NCBI GenBank assembly: GCA_002718585.1
Contig: PBFG01000005.1
Location: forward strand, 20,634-57,837
Direction: 5' to 3'
DNA from: Fidelibacterota bacterium
GTDB lineage: Bacteria; Fidelibacterota; Marinisomatia; SCGC-AAA003-L08; D37C17
DNA: 37,204 bases
The notes beneath the pieces were generated by a model. The model was not told the DNA's origin. It worked only from the letters and a program-made list of their open reading frames with translations, and did no database searches. The translations under genes were made by a program, and so were the position numbers. Positions 4,710 to 15,638 of this stretch are shown in pieces; the first letter of the stretch is position 1; the number at the start of each line of letters is the position of its first letter.

Positions 4710-6653
4710 TTATTTTTTAGTATTTCTTTTTCTTCTAGATGACTTTTTTAATTCAGGTTCTTGAATATTATTTTTAATAGTTTTTTTTTCTTTTTCTCCA
4801 TTGATAATATTTCTCATTTCATCACCTGAAATTGTTTCTTTTTCTAAAAGCTCTTTTGTTATATCATCAAGCTGATGCTTATATTTAGCTAAAATTTTGT
4901 CAGCATTTTTTTCAGCATTTTTAACGAAGGTACTAATCTCTTTATCAATAATTATAGATTTTTCTTCACTATAATTTTTCTGTTGGGAGTAATCTCTTCC
5001 TAAAAAGACTTCTTCATCTTTTTTACCGAACTTTAATGGACCTATTTTATCGCTCATCCCCCAATCACAAACCATTTTTCTAGCGATATTAGTTGCAACT
5101 TCTATATCATTACCTGCACCTGTTGACGTATCGTTATAAATTAGTTTTTCAGCACATCTACCTGCCATTAAAATATCTAATTTACCTAGCATATATGATT
5201 TAGGATAATTGAACCTTTCGACCTCTGGAATTTGGGCTGTTATACCAAGAGCCTGTCCCCTTGGAATAATTGTTATTTTATGAACAGGGTCTGCTCCTTT
5301 TGTATGATGTGCAACTAAAGCATGTCCTGCTTCATGATAAGCAATAATTTCTTTATCTTTAGGAGTTAAAACCATACTTTTTCTTTCATTACCCATCATA
5401 ACTTTGTCTTTAGCATTTTCAAAATCTATCATTGAAATTGTTTTCTTATTGTTTCTAGCAGCTAATAGGGCGGCTTCATTAACAAGATTTTCTAAATCAG
5501 CTCCAGCTAATCCTGGTGTAGATTTTGCTATAATTTTTAATTTAACATCTTTTGATAAACGTACATTTCTAGTATGTATTTTCAGTATCGCTTCACGGCC
5601 ATTTAAATCAGGTACATCTACAACAATTTGCCTATCAAATCTTCCTGGTCTTAATAAAGCTTTATCAAGTACATCAGCTCTATTTGTTGCTGCAAGTAAT
5701 ATAACATTAGATTTTGTATCAAAACCATCCATCTCAACTAAAATTTGATTTAATGTTTGCTCTCTTTCATCATGACCGCCTCCCAATCCGGCCCCCCTAT
5801 GCCTTCCAACAGCATCGATTTCATCAATAAAAATTATACTTGGTGCATTTTTTTTTGCTTGATCAAATAAATCTCGAACTCTGCTGGCACCAACACCAAC
5901 AAACATTTCAACAAATTCAGCTCCACTGATAGTAAAAAATGGAACTTTAGCTTCTCCTGAAACTGCTTTAGCAAGTAAAGTTTTACCTGTTCCAGGAGGG
6001 CCCAAAAGTAGAGCACCTCTAGGTATTTTTGCTCCAATATTTAAATATTTTGTGGGATTTTTCAAAAATCCTACAATTTCTTGTAACTCAACTTTTGCTT
6101 CTTCACAACCTGCCACATCTGAAAAAAGAACTTTAGGCTTATCTGCTGATATAATCTTAGCTTTACTTTTAGCAAAAGAAAATATTCCTCCTTGCCCACC
6201 ACCTTGCATTCTTCTCATAATTAAGAACCAAAAAATTATAATTAAAAGCCAGGGTGAAAATTGAAAAAAGTAATCCATAACACCTGGAGTCATTTTTTGA
6301 ATTTTAATTACTACATCATCGCTTAATATTTCATTCCATTCATCAATTTTATCAATTGTCACATTTGGAAGTATAACCTTAAAACTGTTGACATTATTTT
6401 CCTCATCAATGAAACAGCCTAATTCACAAGTAGCAACTAATTCATTTCCAGTTATAGTTGCACTACTGATATTTTTATTCAACGATTGATCATCAATTAG
6501 TGATAGAAAAGTGGAATATGGTATTTCTTTAGTTTTTTTACTTACATCAACGTAATTAAGGACGGTTAACGAAACTATAATTATTAAAGTCCAAAGTATG
6601 AAATTACTTATTATATTTTTTGTTATTTTATTTTTATTATCTTTTTTTGACAT
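4710..6653 (-). CDS. ftsH: ATP-dependent zinc metalloprotease FtsH
   Basis: This membrane-anchored AAA+ protease degrades misfolded membrane proteins and regulatory substrates. Two N-terminal membrane helices (about 16-36 and 130-146) flank a periplasmic domain. The AAA domain has Walker A GPPGTGKT (218-225), Walker B IIFIDE (274-279), the FVGVGASR pore loop (about 251-258) and the second-region-of-homology arginines in [10 protein letters not shown]. The zinc site is HEAGH (440-444), with the third ligand expected in the downstream [12 protein letters not shown] region. The 647-residue length is normal, and the C-terminus is lysine/arginine-rich. The start ATG 6653 overlaps the end of hpt by 17 bp. 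The tilS-hpt-ftsH-folP order is a widespread bacterial arrangement. Confidence 0.98.
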
Positions 6654-7185
6654 TATTTACCTTTATATATATATCTTTTAAATATCTGAACGATCCATCT
6701 AAATCTAAACCAAAACCAATTACAAATTTATCACTAATTTTAAATCCATGCCAATCGCATAATTCCACATTATTACTCTTAACTAATAAACTAGCGACTT
6801 TAAAACTTTTAGGAGAAAATGAGCTAATATATTTTTTTAAATAGTTAATAGTTTTTCCACTATCAATAATATCCTCGATTAATAGCACATTTTTATTAAT
6901 TAAGTCTTCTTTATTTAATCCAAGTTGAAGATGAATTTTTCCAGGAGTGGTCCCTGAATATGAAGAAACCTGTAAAAACCTGTATGAATACTTGTTAGAA
7001 GAGTTTAATAAAATATGATTCATAAACGGTAATACTCCATTTAAAACTCCAATATATAGAATTTCTTCATTTCCATAAAAATCATCGATTTCTGAAGTTA
7101 TCTGTTTTATTCTTTTTATAATATCCTGATTTTTTATATATTTTTCAAAATAATAGTCTTTATATTTAATGTAGGAATCAATCAT
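6637..7185 (-). CDS. hpt: Hypoxanthine phosphoribosyltransferase
   Basis: The enzyme salvages hypoxanthine (and often guanine) to the nucleotide using PRPP. The PRPP-binding loop VLLIEDIIDSGKT, the flexible-loop segment SSYSGTT and the C-terminal VIGFGLDLDGSFRYL are typical of bacterial HPRT. I chose ATG 7185 (182 residues). It overlaps the tilS stop as ATGA, while the longer reading would begin at a TTG at 7197 with four extra residues and no added conservation. The gene continues 17 bp into ftsH. Its place between tilS and ftsH is the classic context for hpt in many phyla. Confidence 0.95.
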   Translation of the reverse strand: MIDSYIKYKDYYFEKYIKNQDIIKRIKQITSEIDDFYGNEEILYIGVLNGVLPFMNHILLNSSNKYSYRFLQVSSYSGTTPGKIHLQLGLNKEDLINKNVLLIEDIIDSGKTINYLKKYISSFSPKSFKVASLLVKSNNVELCDWHGFKISDKFVIGFGLDLDGSFRYLKDIYIKVNNVKKR

Positions 7186-8513
7186 TTTTTCAACCAATAT
7201 ATTTTAGATATATTTTTATCTTTAGAAAAATAATTATAAAGGTTCGGTACACATAAAACTTGATTCTTAGAATCAGTAATTATAGGATATCTACTTTTTT
7301 CAAATGATGATATTTTATTATTAATAAAAATATCTTTAATTTTTTTTGATGATTTATAACATTTATCTCCATTTTGCCAATTCCTTACATAAAGACCTTT
7401 AATTATTTTTTTTGTGGGAATCTCAAATTCTCCAATAACATTAGAATTTGATAATAGATTTTTTTTATCGAGCACTATTTTAGTATCGTACCAATCATTG
7501 TATTTAAAATTAGGACAAATTTTTATATGTTTTTTAACATTTTTTAATTCAGTTTTAAATATGTAATGATTATCTCTATCTTTAAGAACACAAATTTTTT
7601 CGTCTAAATAAAATTGTGAGCCAGTTTTCGAAAATCTTAAAAAATCACAAAATGAAATCCAAAATCTATTTGTATTGACTTTATTTAAATTAAAATTTGT
7701 GCTAATTAAATTTTTATAAAACAACTTAAAATAACCAAAATCCTCTAGTTCTAAAATTTTATTTGAAACAAGTAAATAATCTCCAGATACTTTGTTAATA
7801 TATATTTTTTTATAGGAATCAAAATTTAAAAGGAATTTTTTTAAATTAGACTTAGCTCTATTATGTGATGTAATTAAAGATTTAATTAATCCTCGATTAG
7901 TTTTTTTTATTCTAGGTAAATCTACATTTCTAATTTTATTTCTTCTAAATGAGTTATCATAGTTTGTAGGATCTTCAATCCAAGAAAGATTATTATCTGA
8001 TGAATATGAAATAATTTCATTTTTATAAATTGAAAGTAATGGTCTAATAATTTTTCTATATTTATTTCTAATACCCAAGAAAGAAATCCAATCACTTTTA
8101 TCATAATGTTTCATTAACAAAGTCTCAATTTGATCATCTTTGTGATGAGCTGTAAGAACGTAATCAATACCTTTATTATTTAATACATCAGTAAATATTT
8201 GATACCTTTGTTTTCGAGCAATAGACTCAAAATTTTTTTTATTTAAATTACTTTTTTTAATAATTAGAGGATATTTATATTTTTTTGATATTTTTTTACA
8301 AAGATTTAACCTATCATATGAATTAGGATTAAAAACGTAATTTATATAAATCAAAGTTACCTTATTAAAAAGATTATAATATTCATTTAATTTAGAAATT
8401 ACATCTACTAAAAAAACGCTATCTACTCCACCTGAAACTCCAATTAGAATACTATCTTTTTTGTTTTCAGATGCAAAAGATTTTATATTTTTAAGAACTT
8501 TTTTTTCTATCAT
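7182..8513 (-). CDS. tilS: tRNA(Ile)-lysidine synthetase
   Basis: TilS converts C34 of the CAU-anticodon tRNA-Ile to lysidine so that it reads AUA, which is important in an AT-rich genome. The N-terminal PP-loop ATPase has the signature SGGVDS (residues 27-32). The HHKDDQIET segment and the RNK-IRN region (SFRRNKIRN) are conserved in TilS. The C-terminal part (GLYVRNWQNGDKC) resembles the TilS C-terminal domain. Its 443 residues match the two-domain form. The composition is extremely Lys/Asn/Ile-rich, as expected from the base bias. The end overlaps hpt by 4 bp, and the start at 8513 lies 15 bp after the GAPDH-like gene. Confidence 0.95.
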   Translation of the reverse strand: MIEKKVLKNIKSFASENKKDSILIGVSGGVDSVFLVDVISKLNEYYNLFNKVTLIYINYVFNPNSYDRLNLCKKISKKYKYPLIIKKSNLNKKNFESIARKQRYQIFTDVLNNKGIDYVLTAHHKDDQIETLLMKHYDKSDWISFLGIRNKYRKIIRPLLSIYKNEIISYSSDNNLSWIEDPTNYDNSFRRNKIRNVDLPRIKKTNRGLIKSLITSHNRAKSNLKKFLLNFDSYKKIYINKVSGDYLLVSNKILELEDFGYFKLFYKNLISTNFNLNKVNTNRFWISFCDFLRFSKTGSQFYLDEKICVLKDRDNHYIFKTELKNVKKHIKICPNFKYNDWYDTKIVLDKKNLLSNSNVIGEFEIPTKKIIKGLYVRNWQNGDKCYKSSKKIKDIFINNKISSFEKSRYPIITDSKNQVLCVPNLYNYFSKDKNISKIYWLKK

Positions 8514-8528
8514 TGTATTAATTAATTT

Positions 8529-9596
8529 TTAGACCTCATCAAAAAACAAGGGTTTTAAACATTGAATTTTATCTTCATATGAATGAGGATAAAGGAACCA
8601 CTCAGTTATAGCAATTGAGCTAAGCAGAGAATTTCCATCCTGCGGTGTAAAACAAAAACCAGTTAACTCATTTCCATTCCTTAAATTTAAAGATGGAACC
8701 GAAACAACTGACTGATTCAATATTCTTCCGAAATGTCCATGATCTCTACCAAAAGAAAAAACTTCATTAGAATTAATTTTATCTGTCAAAGCTATTCTAT
8801 CATTGGCCTCAAATTTCGCTAAAACAGATTGAATATTCGTTTTTCTTTTTAATTTTAAATAAAAATGCTGAATATGCATATATTGAGTATTTAATTTCAT
8901 CGCAGAAGAGAATAAATCAAGCTTTATATCCATTGTATCAAATAAAAGGTGCGCATCCCTCGCATGATGGGTACCAAAAACATCATCATCATGTCTACCA
9001 ATTTGAGGAGAAGGAATAAATTTAGAAGTTTGACTTAAATCATTTGCCCTTCTTATAAGATTAAATCTTCCTTCAATCAAATTGTCATTTCCTTCAGATA
9101 AAGCAATCGTTTTTACAATTGTTGAAAGGTTATGCGTATTGCATGATACTACCTGGATAAACTGATCAATTCCAGATTCAAGTGTCGAATCATTTATGCC
9201 TCTTGCATACATTTTTCCAAAACCAAATTCACTACCTTGCGCTATGAAACCTAAAGTGTTTTCTAAATGTTTTTCATAATAATCTTTTTTATTTTTATGA
9301 CCAAAACCAGTTGGCGTACAGTCAATAACAACTGATGCTCTATCAATAGCTTCTTCTGATACAAATTCTACTTTAATACCAATATCATTAAATCCATCAA
9401 TTTTGTCAGCATTAGTTGACAATCTTGCACCTCTTTTCAATAGGTTAGAAACTTTGGACCTATCAGTTGTTAGAGGTGTATATTTATTAAATGTTATCTC
9501 ATCTATACCTAATTCATCTTTAAAATTGCATAATAAACCAATTAAAGGCTCACCTATGGTACCAGTGCCTATAACATGGACAATTCTTCTCGACAT
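8529..9596 (-). CDS. Archaeal-type (type II) glyceraldehyde-3-phosphate dehydrogenase homologue
   Basis: This 355-residue protein begins with a Rossmann dinucleotide loop (HVIGTGTIGEPL). It resembles archaeal phosphorylating GAPDH rather than the usual bacterial GapA. Supporting segments are DCTPTGFGHKNKKDYY (archaeal PGGIGAKNK-like), QGSEFGFG, the catalytic-Cys segment VVSCNTHNL (Cys152, archaeal VVSCNTTGL), IRRANDLSQ and, near the C-terminus, FTPQDGNSLLSS. The region that is usually HHGPDV in archaea is changed to GRHDDDV, and the protein is slightly longer than usual. GAPDH activity is therefore likely but not certain; a divergent dehydrogenase with another aldehyde substrate is possible. 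It is 11 bp after the YbdK-like gene. No other glycolytic gene is nearby. Confidence 0.75.
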   Translation of the reverse strand: MSRRIVHVIGTGTIGEPLIGLLCNFKDELGIDEITFNKYTPLTTDRSKVSNLLKRGARLSTNADKIDGFNDIGIKVEFVSEEAIDRASVVIDCTPTGFGHKNKKDYYEKHLENTLGFIAQGSEFGFGKMYARGINDSTLESGIDQFIQVVSCNTHNLSTIVKTIALSEGNDNLIEGRFNLIRRANDLSQTSKFIPSPQIGRHDDDVFGTHHARDAHLLFDTMDIKLDLFSSAMKLNTQYMHIQHFYLKLKRKTNIQSVLAKFEANDRIALTDKINSNEVFSFGRDHGHFGRILNQSVVSVPSLNLRNGNELTGFCFTPQDGNSLLSSIAITEWFLYPHSYEDKIQCLKPLFFDEV

Positions 9597-9607
9597 TATT
9601 AATCTCC

Positions 9608-10708
9608 CTAGTTAGTTATTTTATATTCAACATCATTAACTAAAAAACTTTTCAAACCATCAAAACCATATTTTTTAAATACTTCAACCTGTTTTTGTGA
9701 TTCTGTTTTATTTGATAAAATTTCATTTACCGTCTCTATTACATCTTGATTATTAAAAAAAACTAATGATGGTTCAACATAATCTAATAGTTTTTTTATC
9801 ATATCTTTCATAGTAATAACATTTTCTGTAAAAGGATCAATAATTTTTGAACTAATTCCTCTTGTTGCAGCTTTCCAAATTGAATCATTCAAAAATTCCA
9901 TATTAAAACTTTTATCACTAACTTGATTTTCAATGATACTATGAACTAAAGCTTGAGTCAGAGCAATAAACATTTTTGTTCTTCTCAAAGATCTCTGAAT
10001 ATCACAAACTCTAAACTCTATTGTATTATATTCAAAATGAGGTCTTACTTTCCACCAAATATGTCTCGGTTTTTCAATAGAATTCGAATCAATTAATTTA
10101 TTCTTAATATTACAATATTCTTCATATGATTCAATTTTGTGAAGTATGTTAGTTCTAGGAAAAATTCCAAATTGAAATGTTCTAGACGATTCCATTCCTG
10201 TTAAAACACCACCGAAGAAAGGAGAGTTTGCTGAAAGTGCAATAAAAGGAGCTATCCATGCACTTGATAAATTTAAAGCCTTAATTATATTATTCCTTGA
10301 TTCTAAACCTATGTGTATATGTGTTGAAAAGGTAATATTCTGCCTAGCATATTCTTTTAATTGATTTGTTACCCAATTATAAGATTGATTATTAACAAAT
10401 TTTTGTTCTTTTGGAAGGGCTGTTGGATGAGTGCCACTAATTCCTATTTTAAAGCCCAAATCTTCTCCTATATTTTTTAATCTTAGTCTATTTTTCAAAA
10501 CTTCAGATATTGCTTCATTTACATCATTACAAATTGGAGTATTTGCTTCAATTTCACTTAGTAATAATTCATATGAAAATCTTTCTTTTTCACTATCATC
10601 AATAAAGGACATAATCTGATCAGCTTTTTCAATTAAATTAAAATTATTTGGATCGCAAATCATGTATTCTTCTTCAACACCAATAGTATAATTTTTGTTT
10701 AAACTCAT
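9608..10708 (-). CDS. YbdK-family glutamate-cysteine ligase homologue (GCS2 carboxylate-amine ligase)
   Basis: The family condenses a glutamate gamma-carboxyl with an amine; the E. coli member YbdK has weak glutamate-cysteine ligase activity. Markers seen are the N-terminal IGVEEEYM, SEIEANTP, the THIHIGLE segment, FGIFPRTN, IWWKVRPH and IEFRVCDIQ. I set the start at ATG 10708 (366 residues), which overlaps the mutase stop as ATGA and places IGVEEE at residue 9. An upstream in-frame start at 10729 would add seven residues of no clear value. No gshB-like second enzyme is in the window, so a role in glutathione synthesis is unproven; the substrate amine is unknown. Confidence 0.85.
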   Translation of the reverse strand: MSLNKNYTIGVEEEYMICDPNNFNLIEKADQIMSFIDDSEKERFSYELLLSEIEANTPICNDVNEAISEVLKNRLRLKNIGEDLGFKIGISGTHPTALPKEQKFVNNQSYNWVTNQLKEYARQNITFSTHIHIGLESRNNIIKALNLSSAWIAPFIALSANSPFFGGVLTGMESSRTFQFGIFPRTNILHKIESYEEYCNIKNKLIDSNSIEKPRHIWWKVRPHFEYNTIEFRVCDIQRSLRRTKMFIALTQALVHSIIENQVSDKSFNMEFLNDSIWKAATRGISSKIIDPFTENVITMKDMIKKLLDYVEPSLVFFNNQDVIETVNEILSNKTESQKQVEVFKKYGFDGLKSFLVNDVEYKITN

Positions 10709-12336
10709 ATTATTGCTTTTTCTTGCCATTCACCAAAAACAGACTTCATTGAATCTACAATTTCTCCTAAAGTTGCATATTCTAGCGCTGCATCAATGAT
10801 TAATGGCATTAGATTTTCTTTAGTTTTAGCAGATTCAGTTATTTTTTGTAACTTCTTTTCAACTAACTTAGTATTTCTTTTTTTCTTTAAAGAATCAAGA
10901 TTTTTTATTTGTTTATGTTGAACTTTATCAGATATTTCTAAAATAGGTATATCAATTTTTTCGTTTTCTTTAATGAATTTATTTACACCTACGATGAATC
11001 TATCTTTTGATTCAATTTTATTATTGTAAATAGATGCTGAATCAGCAATTTCTCGTTGAAAAAAACCTGATTCTATTCCAGGTATTACCCCACCAATATT
11101 TTTAATCTTGTTAAAATATATATTAGATTTTTTTTCAATTTGATTAGTCAATTCTTCTACATAATAAGATCCACCTAAAGGGTCAGCTACGTTTGCAACT
11201 CCAGTCTCATATGCTAAAATCTGTTGTGTCCTAAGAGCTATTTCTGCAGCTTTTTCAGAAGGTAAAGCTAGTGTTTCATCCATTGAGTTTGTATGTAAAG
11301 ATTGAGTACCTCCTAAAACAGCTGCTAATGCTTGAAAGCCTGTTCTAGCTATATTTATTTCAGGTTGTTGTGCCGTAAGTGAAAATCCTGCAGTTTGAGT
11401 ATGAAATCTTAACTTTAAAGATTTTTCATTTTTAGCTTTGTAATAATTTTTTAATCTTTTTGCCCAAATTCTTCTTGCAGCTCTATACTTACATATTTCC
11501 TCAAAAAAATCTGAGTGAGAATTAAAGAAAAAAGATAACCTTGGTGCAACATCATCAACACTTAATCCTCTTTCTATACATGCATCCAAATATGCAAAAC
11601 CATTTGATAAGGTAAAGGCAAGTTCTTGAACTGCAGTAGACCCTGCTTCCCTAATGTGATAACCACTTACAGAAATAGTATTATATTTTGGCATATTGTT
11701 AGTACAATATTCAATCATATCTACTATTAATTTTACAGATTCTTTTGGTGGATAAATCCATTCTTTTTGTGCAATATATTCTTTTAAAATATCATTTTGC
11801 AATGTTCCATTAATTTTTGAAATATCTATATTCCTTTTTATTGCAAGCGCAACATAAAATGCAAAAATAATTACTGCTGGACCGTTGATTGTCATAGAAA
11901 CACTAACTTTACTTAAATCTATGCCTTCAAATAACTTATCCATATCTTCTAAATTACTTATTGAAACACCACAATGACCAACCTCTCCATCAGATAATTC
12001 ATGATCGGGGTCGTAGCCCATTAAAGTTGGCATATCAAAAGCAACAGATAAGCCAGTTTGTCCATTTTCAAGGAGAAACTTATACCGTTTATTAGTATCT
12101 TCTGGAGATCCGAAACCAGAAAATTGTCTCATAGTCCATAATTTTCCTCTATACATATTAGAATGTATGCCTCTGGTGTAAGGGAATTCACCAGGATAAT
12201 TGATTTCATCATTAAAGTCATTTGAATTTTCATTAGGATAATATAAAGATTCATTTTTTTCGCCTGATATAGTATCAAAATCATAATCTCTGGATTTTGA
12301 ATTAATCATATTTTTTTTCCAGTTATTTTTACTCAT
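10705..12336 (-). CDS. Cobalamin-dependent acyl-CoA mutase large subunit, isobutyryl-CoA mutase-like
   Basis: The 543 residues form the catalytic TIM-barrel chain of the methylmalonyl/isobutyryl-CoA mutase family without the C-terminal B12-binding domain, as in two-subunit enzymes. Conserved parts are MYRGKLWTMRQF, GLSVAFDMPT, SVSMTINGPA, the active-site His in ISVSGYHIREAG (His227) and FGGTQ-like LGGTQSLHTNSMDE. At the two positions that set specificity, this protein has Phe72 (in MRQF) and Gln190 (in EYIAQKEW), where methylmalonyl-CoA mutase has Tyr and Arg. The 118-residue spacing equals that of the known pairs (Tyr89/Arg207 in P. shermanii MCM, Phe80/Gln198 in IcmA). Isobutyryl/n-butyryl-CoA interconversion is therefore favoured. 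The small B12 subunit must be elsewhere. It overlaps dxs by 8 bp. Confidence 0.85.
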   Translation of the reverse strand: MSKNNWKKNMINSKSRDYDFDTISGEKNESLYYPNENSNDFNDEINYPGEFPYTRGIHSNMYRGKLWTMRQFSGFGSPEDTNKRYKFLLENGQTGLSVAFDMPTLMGYDPDHELSDGEVGHCGVSISNLEDMDKLFEGIDLSKVSVSMTINGPAVIIFAFYVALAIKRNIDISKINGTLQNDILKEYIAQKEWIYPPKESVKLIVDMIEYCTNNMPKYNTISVSGYHIREAGSTAVQELAFTLSNGFAYLDACIERGLSVDDVAPRLSFFFNSHSDFFEEICKYRAARRIWAKRLKNYYKAKNEKSLKLRFHTQTAGFSLTAQQPEINIARTGFQALAAVLGGTQSLHTNSMDETLALPSEKAAEIALRTQQILAYETGVANVADPLGGSYYVEELTNQIEKKSNIYFNKIKNIGGVIPGIESGFFQREIADSASIYNNKIESKDRFIVGVNKFIKENEKIDIPILEISDKVQHKQIKNLDSLKKKRNTKLVEKKLQKITESAKTKENLMPLIIDAALEYATLGEIVDSMKSVFGEWQEKAII

Positions 12337-14191
12337 AATTATTTAACACTTTTTCATAAATTTTTCTTATAGATAAGTTGGTGATGTCCAACAATTCAGT
12401 TCTACTTCCATGATCAACAAAATTATCATCTATGCCAATTAACTTTATTACACTATTATGATTGCATCCACTGTAATACTCTAAAACAGATGAACCGAAT
12501 CCCCCACTTATACATCCTTCTTCCACCGTAAAAATATACTTATATTTTTTAATAATAATATTTAACATTTCTGAATCTAATGGCTTAATAAATCTACAAT
12601 TAACAACTCCAGCTTTAATATTTTTTTTATCAAGTAATTTGGAAGCAACTTCAGAACAAGTCTCAACCATTGATCCAACACTTAAAAAAACTACCTCACT
12701 ACCATCTTTAATAACTTCCCAAGAACCAACTTCTATCTCTTTTGGCTTATAATTTAAACTATAATCGGTCTGTATTTTTCCATATCTTATTGAAAAAATT
12801 TTTTTAATTTTTAGTGCAGTGTAAAGTAAATCATGAAGCTCATAACCATCCTTTGGAGAAGTAACAATGAAATTTGGGATCATCCTCAAAAAAGCCATAT
12901 CAAAAATACCATGATGAGTCGGTCCATCAGCTCCAACTAAACCAGCTCTATCCATACAAATTATTACTGGTAAATTTTGAATAGCAATATCATGAACAAT
13001 CTGATCAAATGCTCTTTGTATAAAAGTAGAATAAATTGCAACAACAGGAATACTATTTGAGGCTGAAATGCCTGAAGAATATGTCAATGCATGCTGCTCA
13101 GCTATACCAACATCAATATACCTATTTTCATGTAGCTTAGAAAATTCAGATAATCCAGTACCAACATCCATAGCTGCGGTAATACAAGTAAAATCATATT
13201 TATTTGAAAGATCCAGTATACTTTTTCCAAATACTTTAGAGAAAGTAAAAGAATTAGCAATAGTATTAGAATTTGAGGGAGACAAACTATAGTACTTTAC
13301 TGCATCATCAGTGTCAAAATGTTCTATTCTACGAGATTTATTTGTATGAATATGAAGCAGAACTGGACCATCGATTTTTTTTATAGTTTTAAATACTCTA
13401 ATCAATTCATTTAAATTATGACCATCAATAGGTCCAATATATCTTATTCCTAACTCTTCAAAAAAACCTCCATCGGTTAGACTAACTTTTACACCACTTT
13501 CTGCCTTCTTTAAAAGCTTTTTTATGCGATTGGACATCATAGGTAATTTTTCAGTAATATCTTTTACATTGTCTCTGAGTCTATTGTAAGTTGGGTTAGT
13601 AGTTAACTTTGTTAAATATTTTGATAATGCTCCTACACTCTGTGAAATTGACAAAGAATTATCATTAAGAACAACTGTTAACTGTGTTCTATGATAACCT
13701 AAATTATTTAGTGCTTCGTATGCCAGACCACCAGTCATTGCTCCATCACCTATAATTGCTAAAACTTTTTCATCTGTTTTGTACTTATCTCTCATATGAG
13801 CAAAACCCAAAGCTGCTGAAATTGAAGTACTTGTATGCCCTGCCCCGAAACAATCATATATGCTTTCATCACGTTTTAAAAAACCACTAATTCCACCAAA
13901 CTTTCTAATTTTTTTAAATTCTTCTCTTCTTCCAGTTAATATTTTATGTGGATAAGCCTGATGTCCCACATCCCACACAAGTTTATCAGATGGAGTATTG
14001 TAAACATAATGCAAAGCAATGGTTAATTCAATTACTCCTAAGGGAGAAGAATAATGGCCACCAAGCTCTGAAATAACTTCATGAATATAGGATGCCAATT
14101 CATCTGAAAGCTGATTAAGCTGATTTAGATTTAACTTTTTTAAATCATTAGGACTATCAATAGTTTTTAATATTTCGTATGAATCACTCAT
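12329..14191 (-). CDS. dxs: 1-deoxy-D-xylulose-5-phosphate synthase
   Basis: DXS joins pyruvate and glyceraldehyde 3-phosphate with thiamine diphosphate to make DXP, the entry to the MEP isoprenoid pathway and a thiamine precursor. The 620-residue length is standard. Visible motifs are DVGHQAYPHKILTGR, the ThDP/Mg2+ site GDGAMTGG (148-155) with LNDNSLSIS, VGIAEQHA with the catalytic Glu, and DRAGLVGADGPTHHG in the pyrimidine domain. It overlaps pdxT by 8 bp. ispH lies three genes upstream, so the first and last MEP enzymes are in one operon. The adjacent PdxST makes PLP without DXP, so this DXS should serve isoprenoids and thiamine. Confidence 0.97.
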   Translation of the reverse strand: MSDSYEILKTIDSPNDLKKLNLNQLNQLSDELASYIHEVISELGGHYSSPLGVIELTIALHYVYNTPSDKLVWDVGHQAYPHKILTGRREEFKKIRKFGGISGFLKRDESIYDCFGAGHTSTSISAALGFAHMRDKYKTDEKVLAIIGDGAMTGGLAYEALNNLGYHRTQLTVVLNDNSLSISQSVGALSKYLTKLTTNPTYNRLRDNVKDITEKLPMMSNRIKKLLKKAESGVKVSLTDGGFFEELGIRYIGPIDGHNLNELIRVFKTIKKIDGPVLLHIHTNKSRRIEHFDTDDAVKYYSLSPSNSNTIANSFTFSKVFGKSILDLSNKYDFTCITAAMDVGTGLSEFSKLHENRYIDVGIAEQHALTYSSGISASNSIPVVAIYSTFIQRAFDQIVHDIAIQNLPVIICMDRAGLVGADGPTHHGIFDMAFLRMIPNFIVTSPKDGYELHDLLYTALKIKKIFSIRYGKIQTDYSLNYKPKEIEVGSWEVIKDGSEVVFLSVGSMVETCSEVASKLLDKKNIKAGVVNCRFIKPLDSEMLNIIIKKYKYIFTVEEGCISGGFGSSVLEYYSGCNHNSVIKLIGIDDNFVDHGSRTELLDITNLSIRKIYEKVLNNYE

Positions 14192-14756
14192 TAATCATAT
14201 TGATAAAATATTTATGAATAGATAAATCTTTCCCTATTTCTGGGTGAAATGATGAGATTAAGTGTTTATCATTTCTAATGAGAACTGGCTCATTTTTATA
14301 ACGCCCAATTACCTTACAGTCTTTTGAAACTTTTAAAAATCTTGGACCCCTTATGAAGGTAGCATAAAATTTATCTGATAGAATTTCATTTTTACTAAGG
14401 TTAATGATATCTGAAAAAGAATCAATTTGAGCTCCCCATGAATTTCTTTTTGTGAAAACATTTATTAATCCAAGATTTTTAACTTTTTGATCTCCACTGC
14501 CAGCAGACATCAAAATTGCCCCAGCACAAGTTCCAAATAAGTTAAAATTATCAGAGAATTTTCTTATAGAATTAAATAAATCAAACTTATTCATTAACAA
14601 GGACATTGTTGTAGATTCACCTCCAGGTAGGATTAGTGCTTTAATATCATCTAAATCTTTGGAACTTCTAACAAATGAACTATTAATAGAAAGACTAGTG
14701 AGAGCTTTCCTGTGAAGTTCAAAATCACCTTGGATTGCTAAAATCCCTATCTTCAA
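14184..14756 (-). CDS. pdxT: Pyridoxal 5'-phosphate synthase glutaminase subunit
   Basis: PdxT releases ammonia from glutamine and feeds it to PdxS. The 190 residues show the class I glutamine amidotransferase fold: GILAIQGDFELH at the N-terminus, LPGGESTTM (oxyanion region), the nucleophile in FGTCAGA (Cys77) and the C-terminal His/Glu pair in SSFHPEIG. The start is TTG 14756, directly after the pdxS TAA; the TTG-encoded Met is the only one that retains the invariant first strand (KIGILAIQG). The pdxS-pdxT adjacency with zero gap fits co-translation of the two subunits of one complex. Confidence 0.96.
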   Translation of the reverse strand: MKIGILAIQGDFELHRKALTSLSINSSFVRSSKDLDDIKALILPGGESTTMSLLMNKFDLFNSIRKFSDNFNLFGTCAGAILMSAGSGDQKVKNLGLINVFTKRNSWGAQIDSFSDIINLSKNEILSDKFYATFIRGPRFLKVSKDCKVIGRYKNEPVLIRNDKHLISSFHPEIGKDLSIHKYFINMINE

Positions 14757-15638
14757 TTACCATCCCCTATTCTGCAACATTTCATTCTCAGGAATATCAG
14801 CTATATCAATGCCTTCCATTGCCTCTTTTAAACCAGAAGATATTTCTGCTAATCTTTTTGGATTATCATAATAAGTAGTAGCTTCTACAATTGCTTCTGC
14901 TCTTGATTTTGGATCTTCTGATTTAAATATTCCGGAACCTACAAAAACAGATTCTGCACCTAACTGCATCATAAGCGATGCATCAGCAGGTGTTGCAATT
15001 CCTCCAGCACTGAAATTTGGAACTGGTAATTTACCTAACTCTTTTACTTTTGTTAAAATATTTAATGGAGCATTGTTTTTAATTGAAAATTCTTCTAATT
15101 CTTTGTTATTCATTTTAGTAACCAACTTAATCTCATCCATTATAGTTCTCATGTGCGTTACAGCCTCAACTATATTTCCTGAACCAGCTTCACCTTTTGT
15201 TCTAATCATAGCTGCACCTTCATTAATACGTCTGGAAGCTTCACTTAGATTTCTTGCACCGCAGACAAATGGTACCTTGAATGGATTCTTATCTACATGA
15301 AAAGAATTATCTGCTGGAGTAAGAACTTCACTTTCATCTATAAAATCAATTTCTAAAGATTCTAATATTTGAGCTTCGGCAAAGTGACCAATTCTACATT
15401 TTGCCATAACTGGAATAGATACATTTTCTTTTATATCTGTAATCATTTTAGGATTTGACATTCTACAAACACCTCCATCTCTTCTGATATCTGCAGGTAT
15501 TTTTTCTAATGCCATAACGGCAACTGCACCAGCTTTCTCAGCAATACATGCCTGTTCCACATTTGTAACATCCATGATTACACCGCCCTTAAGCATTTCT
15601 GCTAAACTTACTTTTATCTCAAACGAACCTTTTTTCAT
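14757..15638 (-). CDS. pdxS: Pyridoxal 5'-phosphate synthase, synthase subunit
   Basis: PdxS builds PLP from ribose 5-phosphate, glyceraldehyde 3-phosphate and ammonia delivered by PdxT. The 293-residue TIM barrel is nearly canonical: Asp23 in GVIMDVTN, the imine-forming Lys80 in MAKCRIGH, the second catalytic Lys148 in [11 protein letters not shown], and [16 protein letters not shown] with the phosphate-binding loop FVGSGIFKS. It is preceded by the clearest ribosome binding site in the window, which suggests strong expression. The gene is 9 bp downstream of ispH and directly upstream of pdxT. Confidence 0.98.

Follow-up and report, generated by a model that had tools for sequence, protein, structure and literature searches.

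The window (the whole stretch of DNA that was analysed, 37,204 nucleotides) belongs to a Fidelibacterota (SAR406/Marinimicrobia) genome of 1.46 Mb that is 93% complete. The open reading frame under study is intact, starts with ATG, and represents a real and conserved gene. It is located inside a long run of genes on the same strand, 11 bp from the gene of a GCS2/YbdK ligase and 15 bp from tilS (Table 1).

Table 1. Features of the GAPDH homologue and of the genes around it (positions refer to the window)
Feature	Position	Strand	Remarks
Type II-like GAPDH homologue, 355 aa	8529..9596	-	ORF, profile, PDB and structure matches
GTGTIG at residues 10-15, putative loop for dinucleotide binding, judged from the Rossmann fold	9552..9569	-	Invariant in 33 rows
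Lys38, where strand beta2 ends without an acidic residue; candidate contact of the NADP 2'-phosphate	9483..9485	-	
Cys152 in SCNTHN, predicted catalytic nucleophile	9141..9143	-	Aligned with Cys140 of 1cf2
Arg182-Arg183, predicted phosphate-site pair	9048..9053	-	Aligned with Arg167/168 of 1cf2; no variation among the rows of the family or of canonical type II
His210-His211 of HHARDA (residues 210-215), counterpart of archaeal HHGPDV	8964..8969	-	
His241 in NTQYMH, predicted catalytic base	8874..8876	-	Aligned with His219 of 1cf2; no variation among the rows of the family or of canonical type II
YbdK/GCS2-type carboxylate-amine ligase, upstream neighbour	9608..10729	-	
Methylmalonyl-CoA mutase large-subunit type, upstream	10705..12336	-	
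Dxs, upstream	12329..14191	-	
PdxT, upstream	14184..14756	-	
PdxS, upstream	14757..15638	-	
TilS, downstream neighbour	7182..8513	-	
Hpt-type phosphoribosyltransferase, downstream	6637..7197	-	132.6 bits, under the cut-off of 150

The protein was compared with profile and structure collections. Its best NCBIfam matches were the type II GAPDH models NF003251 (100 bits, E 1.4e-28) and TIGR01546 (74 bits, E 1.2e-20), but both curated cut-offs were missed (185 and 232.9 bits, respectively). The sole Pfam match was Gp_dh_C, below its cut-off (19.5 versus 24.4 bits). Among the type I models, PF00044 did not match the protein and TIGR01534 reached 14.4 bits against a cut-off of 367.2 bits. All four PDB matches at E <0.001 were archaeal GAPDHs (1cf2, 1b7g, 2czc, and 2yyy), with E values of 8e-14 to 2e-9 for the single protein and of 1e-21 to 1e-13 for the family profile. 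Archaeal GAPDHs also ranked first when the AlphaFold model (pLDDT 90.3, pTM 0.89) was searched with Foldseek (TM 0.80-0.82). With VIA-align, the model matched the four archaeal GAPDHs at Z 36.9-37.9 (rmsd 2.1-2.2 over 323-329 residues), and the next entry stood at Z 26.9; type I GAPDHs were found at Z about 25-27, level with aspartate-semialdehyde dehydrogenases at about 26. This gap in Z indicates that the predicted model has the fold of type II rather than that of type I. A sequence-only reading of the locus had pointed to an archaeal-type GAPDH in a bacterium. The presence of a type II-like protein in a bacterium is borne out by these profile and PDB matches and by the retained SCNTHN segment, and the structure prediction agrees with it; assignment to the archaeal type itself does not follow, since the protein lies outside the curated type II models, though inside the superfamily, and forms a clade of its own (see below).

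The residues expected of a phosphorylating enzyme were then read from the alignments. In 1cf2 we take Cys140 and His219 to be catalytic and the Arg pair to bind phosphate. Their counterparts C152, R182, R183 and H241, together with D186, H210 and D214, are identical in all 33 family rows, 8 archaeal family rows and 21 canonical type II rows. Cys152 is also invariant across the type I rows, and the whole SCNTHN segment is invariant in 33 aligned relatives; His211 is replaced by Gln in one of the 33 family rows. The earlier reading held that the archaeal HHGPDV motif had been altered to GRHDDDV. This was a misalignment: HHGPDV aligns with HHARDA, and GRHDDDV (residues 200-206) lies just upstream. 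When the putative phosphate-binding residues were checked, both the Arg pair and HH..D proved to be conserved. Position 38 holds Lys in all rows of the family (33/33), of its archaeal members (8/8) and of canonical type II (21/21). Because this residue is invariant and beta2 ends without an acidic residue, just as it does in canonical type II, the alignment suggests NADP as the cofactor.

A scan of genome contigs yielded 235 relatives, and 80 loci were kept. Judged by record titles, members of the family occur in roughly a dozen phyla of bacteria and in some Thermoplasmatota; the titles name Neomarinimicrobiota, Acidobacteria, Planctomycetota, Deltaproteobacteria, Desulfomonile, Nitrospinota, Eisenbacteria, Krumholzibacteriota, Bipolaricaulota, Oligoflexia, Myxococcota, Gemmatimonadota, and Thermoplasmata. 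One locus (L094) comes from a MAG titled Bacillota, and its label or binning is doubtful because the gene order around the family gene is nearly that of the Planctomycetota loci. Conservation within the family is strong: identity reaches 98% or more at 84 positions among 101 distinct homologues, and 33 representatives (32 bacterial, one Thermoplasmata) share 51-72% pairwise identity. All 33 match the type II NCBIfam models. Mean identity is 21% to canonical Thermoplasmatota type II and 16% to type I. Compared with canonical type II, 29 positions are common and 20 are fixed differences, among which the changes from SCNTTG to SCNTHN, PTTLMH to NTQYMH and QGGE to QGSE adjoin catalytic residues.

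In IQ-TREE analyses, canonical type II formed one clade (99/98; 100/100 without type I rows) and the family, outside it, formed the other (93/97; 100/100 without type I rows). The possibility that this bacterial lineage simply took up an archaeal type II GAPDH, of the ordinary kind though somewhat divergent, agrees with the best profile and structure matches and with the catalytic set common to both groups. We nevertheless regard it as very improbable, given the separate clade, the low mean identity and fixed differences, the spread over so many bacterial phyla, the scores under both curated cut-offs, and the fact that nothing matched above the TIGR01546 cut-off in 48 genomes. As neither the curated cut-off nor the clade test places the family with canonical type II, we have not filed it there. 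The bacterial rows formed one clade (99/100; 100/99) nested among the Thermoplasmatota rows, which fits the earlier suggestion of a "transferred or ancient" enzyme. Passage from archaea to bacteria may be the direction, and we treat this as a lead rather than a proof, given the great length of the connecting branch and the fact that the archaeal rows, those of canonical type II included, come from a single phylum, Thermoplasmatota. The deepest family branch is a divergent Thermoplasmatota member (L186, in genome G190) with GAGTIGAPL in place of GTGTIGEPL; its host carries two PGK matches and a type I GAPDH. Recoding of TGA was considered for the copy in G042 (L195, G042:C14:143960-145021) and rejected, as the frame is disrupted in two places; three in-frame TGA codons fall in the two disrupted stretches, consistent with a frameshift in this copy, an assembly error or decay. 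G042 also has a type I GAPDH. Searches of a PMC library, outside which most subscription papers fall, brought up no description of the family in the titles and abstract openings listed.

The gene surroundings were compared across the loci. Dxs consumes GAP, and the PdxS/PdxT pathway uses GAP and can dispense with erythrose-4-phosphate dehydrogenase. A gene for Dxs, PdxS or PdxT lies at most six ORFs from the family gene in 18 of 76 loci, and a Bipolaricaulota contig has the order PdxS-PdxT-family gene. A conserved operon partner in bacteria was sought and rejected, the neighbours being lineage-specific, and none of the 80 kept loci contained a gene for PGK, TIM/TpiA or type I GAPDH. In 19 loci (for example L046:4093-4737), a metallo-beta-lactamase-fold hydrolase (GloB-like, below cut-off) lies directly 3' of the family gene; in two Thermoplasmata loci (L099 and L100), a GloB-like hydrolase is found beside it on the opposite strand.

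Whether the host has another GAPDH was examined by profile searches. PF00044 gave no match in the host genome, while 14 of 14 controls were found, and the locus at 8529-9596 was the only one hit by TIGR01546 or by the protein query. The genome has a PGK gene, in a pgk-tpiA pair, and two PFK-family genes of about 400 aa. Judged from these searches, the family protein is probably the sole GAPDH of its host, as the sequence-only reading had surmised. We next turned to 98 Fidelibacterota genomes, each at least 90% complete. PF00044 was absent from 16 of them, and 14 of these 16 carry the family gene; the other two, G110 and G148, lack both. The pattern is uniform in genus g22 (0.8-1.0 Mb, 92-98% complete): all eight genomes have the family gene and lack PF00044 and PFK matches, TIGR01546 hits nothing in them beyond the family gene, and pgk is present in the five tested. 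In G045 and G041, tpiA was read beside pgk. PGK was detected in all 11 tested Fidelibacterota genomes without type I and in 3/5 such genomes reached through other loci; two draft genomes (G072 and G074) have the family gene and yielded neither PGK nor PF00044 matches.

The family gene is not confined to genomes without type I. It is also present in 65 of the 82 Fidelibacterota genomes that bear type I (a weak match in G142 excluded), and complementarity between the two inside the phylum, when tested, was not significant (14/16 versus 65/82, p 0.73). Both genes occur together in 26/37 relatives and in 38/43 further genomes, the latter lying behind loci mostly of other phyla. Because the family gene is kept in those 65 genomes, its enzyme may have a role that goes beyond the GAPDH step or differs from it. 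A clean contrast between lineages of the phylum is provided by family f16 (G103-G111), in which 8/9 genomes have one strong type I match and 0/9 have the family gene. In genomes with type I, this gene is often a tandem pair. Beside classical gapA, the catalytic Cys of the paralogue is replaced (SSTTN, SSTAN or SSTTG for SCTTN) at L147:4854-5876, L149:5030-6064 and L150:5283-6332, and it is retained (SCAIQ) at L160:4331-5368; the Cys is thus replaced in three of the four paralogues read, and the tandem paralogue may be a non-catalytic subunit.

Thermoplasmatota genomes were compared in the same manner. Of 40 genomes, 21 have a canonical type II GAPDH above cut-off and 10 have the family gene, with none having both; canonical type II is thus found in 0/10 family carriers and 21/30 others (Fisher p 1.1e-4, without correction for kinship). 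The archaeal members score 98-124 bits with the type II model. With G093 included there are 11 archaeal carriers, of which four (G093, G094, G176, and G190) have type I; in the remaining seven, the family protein is the only GAPDH found. A PGK match was obtained in 41/41 Thermoplasmatota genomes tested, that of G093 being just a fragment. In G166, G185, G191 and G197, which all lack type I, pgk and the family gene lie in this order on the same strand, 15-16 bp apart; these four operons count as one event, because their genomes form one clade (100/100). By contrast, pgk adjoins type I, not the family gene, in the four carriers with type I, and it adjoins canonical type II in G178 and G187. Taken together, the exclusion of canonical type II, the presence of PGK in all genomes and the pgk operon lead to the conclusion that the family fills the GAPDH slot in Thermoplasmatota.

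These observations bear on the proposal, raised in the sequence-only reading as drift to another aldehyde, that this dehydrogenase has some other phosphorylated aldehyde or acyl phosphate as its substrate. Type I GapA would then serve glycolysis where present, and streamlined SAR406 would live without a phosphorylating GAPDH. The frequent co-occurrence with type I would suit such an enzyme, as would the family-specific residues next to catalytic ones and the high identity among representatives, expected of a distinct essential role. It is hard to reconcile with the archaeal pgk operon, the exclusion of canonical type II and the seven archaeal carriers that have pgk and no other GAPDH; g22 and the host genome, too, have pgk and no other GAPDH. 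The operon and the exclusion, along with the intact HH motif, point to GAP/1,3-BPG as the likely substrates, and we judge another aldehyde to be unlikely. Its erythrose-4-phosphate variant, a dehydrogenase role for PLP, seems less likely here as far as the window goes, because PdxS and PdxT of the other PLP route are encoded in it.

Given this evidence, it seems probable that the gene encodes a phosphorylating GAPDH, that its family stands apart from archaeal type II as a sister group, and that the enzyme serves as the sole GAPDH of the genome, mainly in gluconeogenesis and with a preference for NADP(H). We infer the reaction, the roles of single residues, the cofactor and the direction. With its catalytic set intact, the enzyme most probably works like type II, as far as activity can be predicted. 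Cys152 would form the (thio)hemiacetal and thioacyl intermediate, His241 would act as the base, Arg182/Arg183 and the HH..D motif would hold the phosphates, and the nicotinamide cofactor, preferably NADP(H), would be bound in the Rossmann domain. In the host, the enzyme would be the partner of Pgk and TpiA, most likely converting mainly 1,3-BPG to GAP, a direction that would supply sugar phosphates as well as the pathways that draw on GAP, those of Dxs and PdxST among them. Gluconeogenesis fits g22, which has lost PFK yet keeps pgk and tpiA. Gluconeogenesis has been reported for SAR406 bins in PMC5596340, the main text of which does not contain glyceraldehyde or GAPDH as terms. In a variant of this reading, not exclusive of it as regards the enzyme, the GAPDH would be catabolic (glycolytic) or else fully reversible. 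The two PFK-family genes of the host allow the glycolytic direction and make reversibility possible there. However, all eight g22 genomes carry the family gene without PFK, and the NAD-discriminating position lacks an acidic residue; we hold this variant to be the less likely one, with some hesitation.

GAPDH catalyses a near-universal step, and our searches show that some SAR406 have pgk and tpiA and no GAPDH recognisable above curated cut-offs. Annotation would leave this step open in such genomes or fill it through a weak match. A separate GAPDH family, which replaces canonical type II in archaea and stands behind pgk, would explain the SAR406 gap. More broadly, we lean, by a narrow preference, towards a third phosphorylating class ("type III"), present in a dozen or so bacterial phyla as well as in some Thermoplasmatota, which passed once from archaea to bacteria and serves as the sole gluconeogenic GAPDH in streamlined SAR406 and beside a glycolytic type I in larger genomes, like haloarchaeal GapII. 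A separate family of the kind that would explain the SAR406 gap would also offer a case, open to testing, in which catabolic and anabolic GAPDHs are split between two ancient families, with a probable transfer from archaea to bacteria.

Three known systems can be set beside the family. It has in common with archaeal type II GAPDH (TIGR01546/NF003251) the fold (Z about 37), the catalytic Cys and His, the Arg pair, the HH..D motif and the Lys at the end of beta2, and both have PGK as a neighbour in some archaea. It differs in being about 21% identical, below the curated cut-offs and in its own clade, and in the signatures SCNTHN, NTQYMH, QGSEFGFGK and TPQDGNSLLSS. With type I GAPDH (GapA; PF00044/PF02800, TIGR01534), it shares the superfamily fold (Z about 25-27) and the catalytic Cys, but it is about 16% identical, has no PF00044 match, and has His241 in a column occupied by Ser in type I. 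The third comparison is with haloarchaea, for which a passage in PMC10817205 (citing Tastensen and Schonheit 2018) describes gapI as glycolytic and gapII as gluconeogenic, the GapII of Haloferax volcanii being type II. The division of labour proposed here, with type I for glycolysis and a type II-like enzyme for gluconeogenesis, resembles the one described in that passage; unlike H. volcanii GapII, the present case concerns bacteria and another family, and its division of labour is a prediction from genes.
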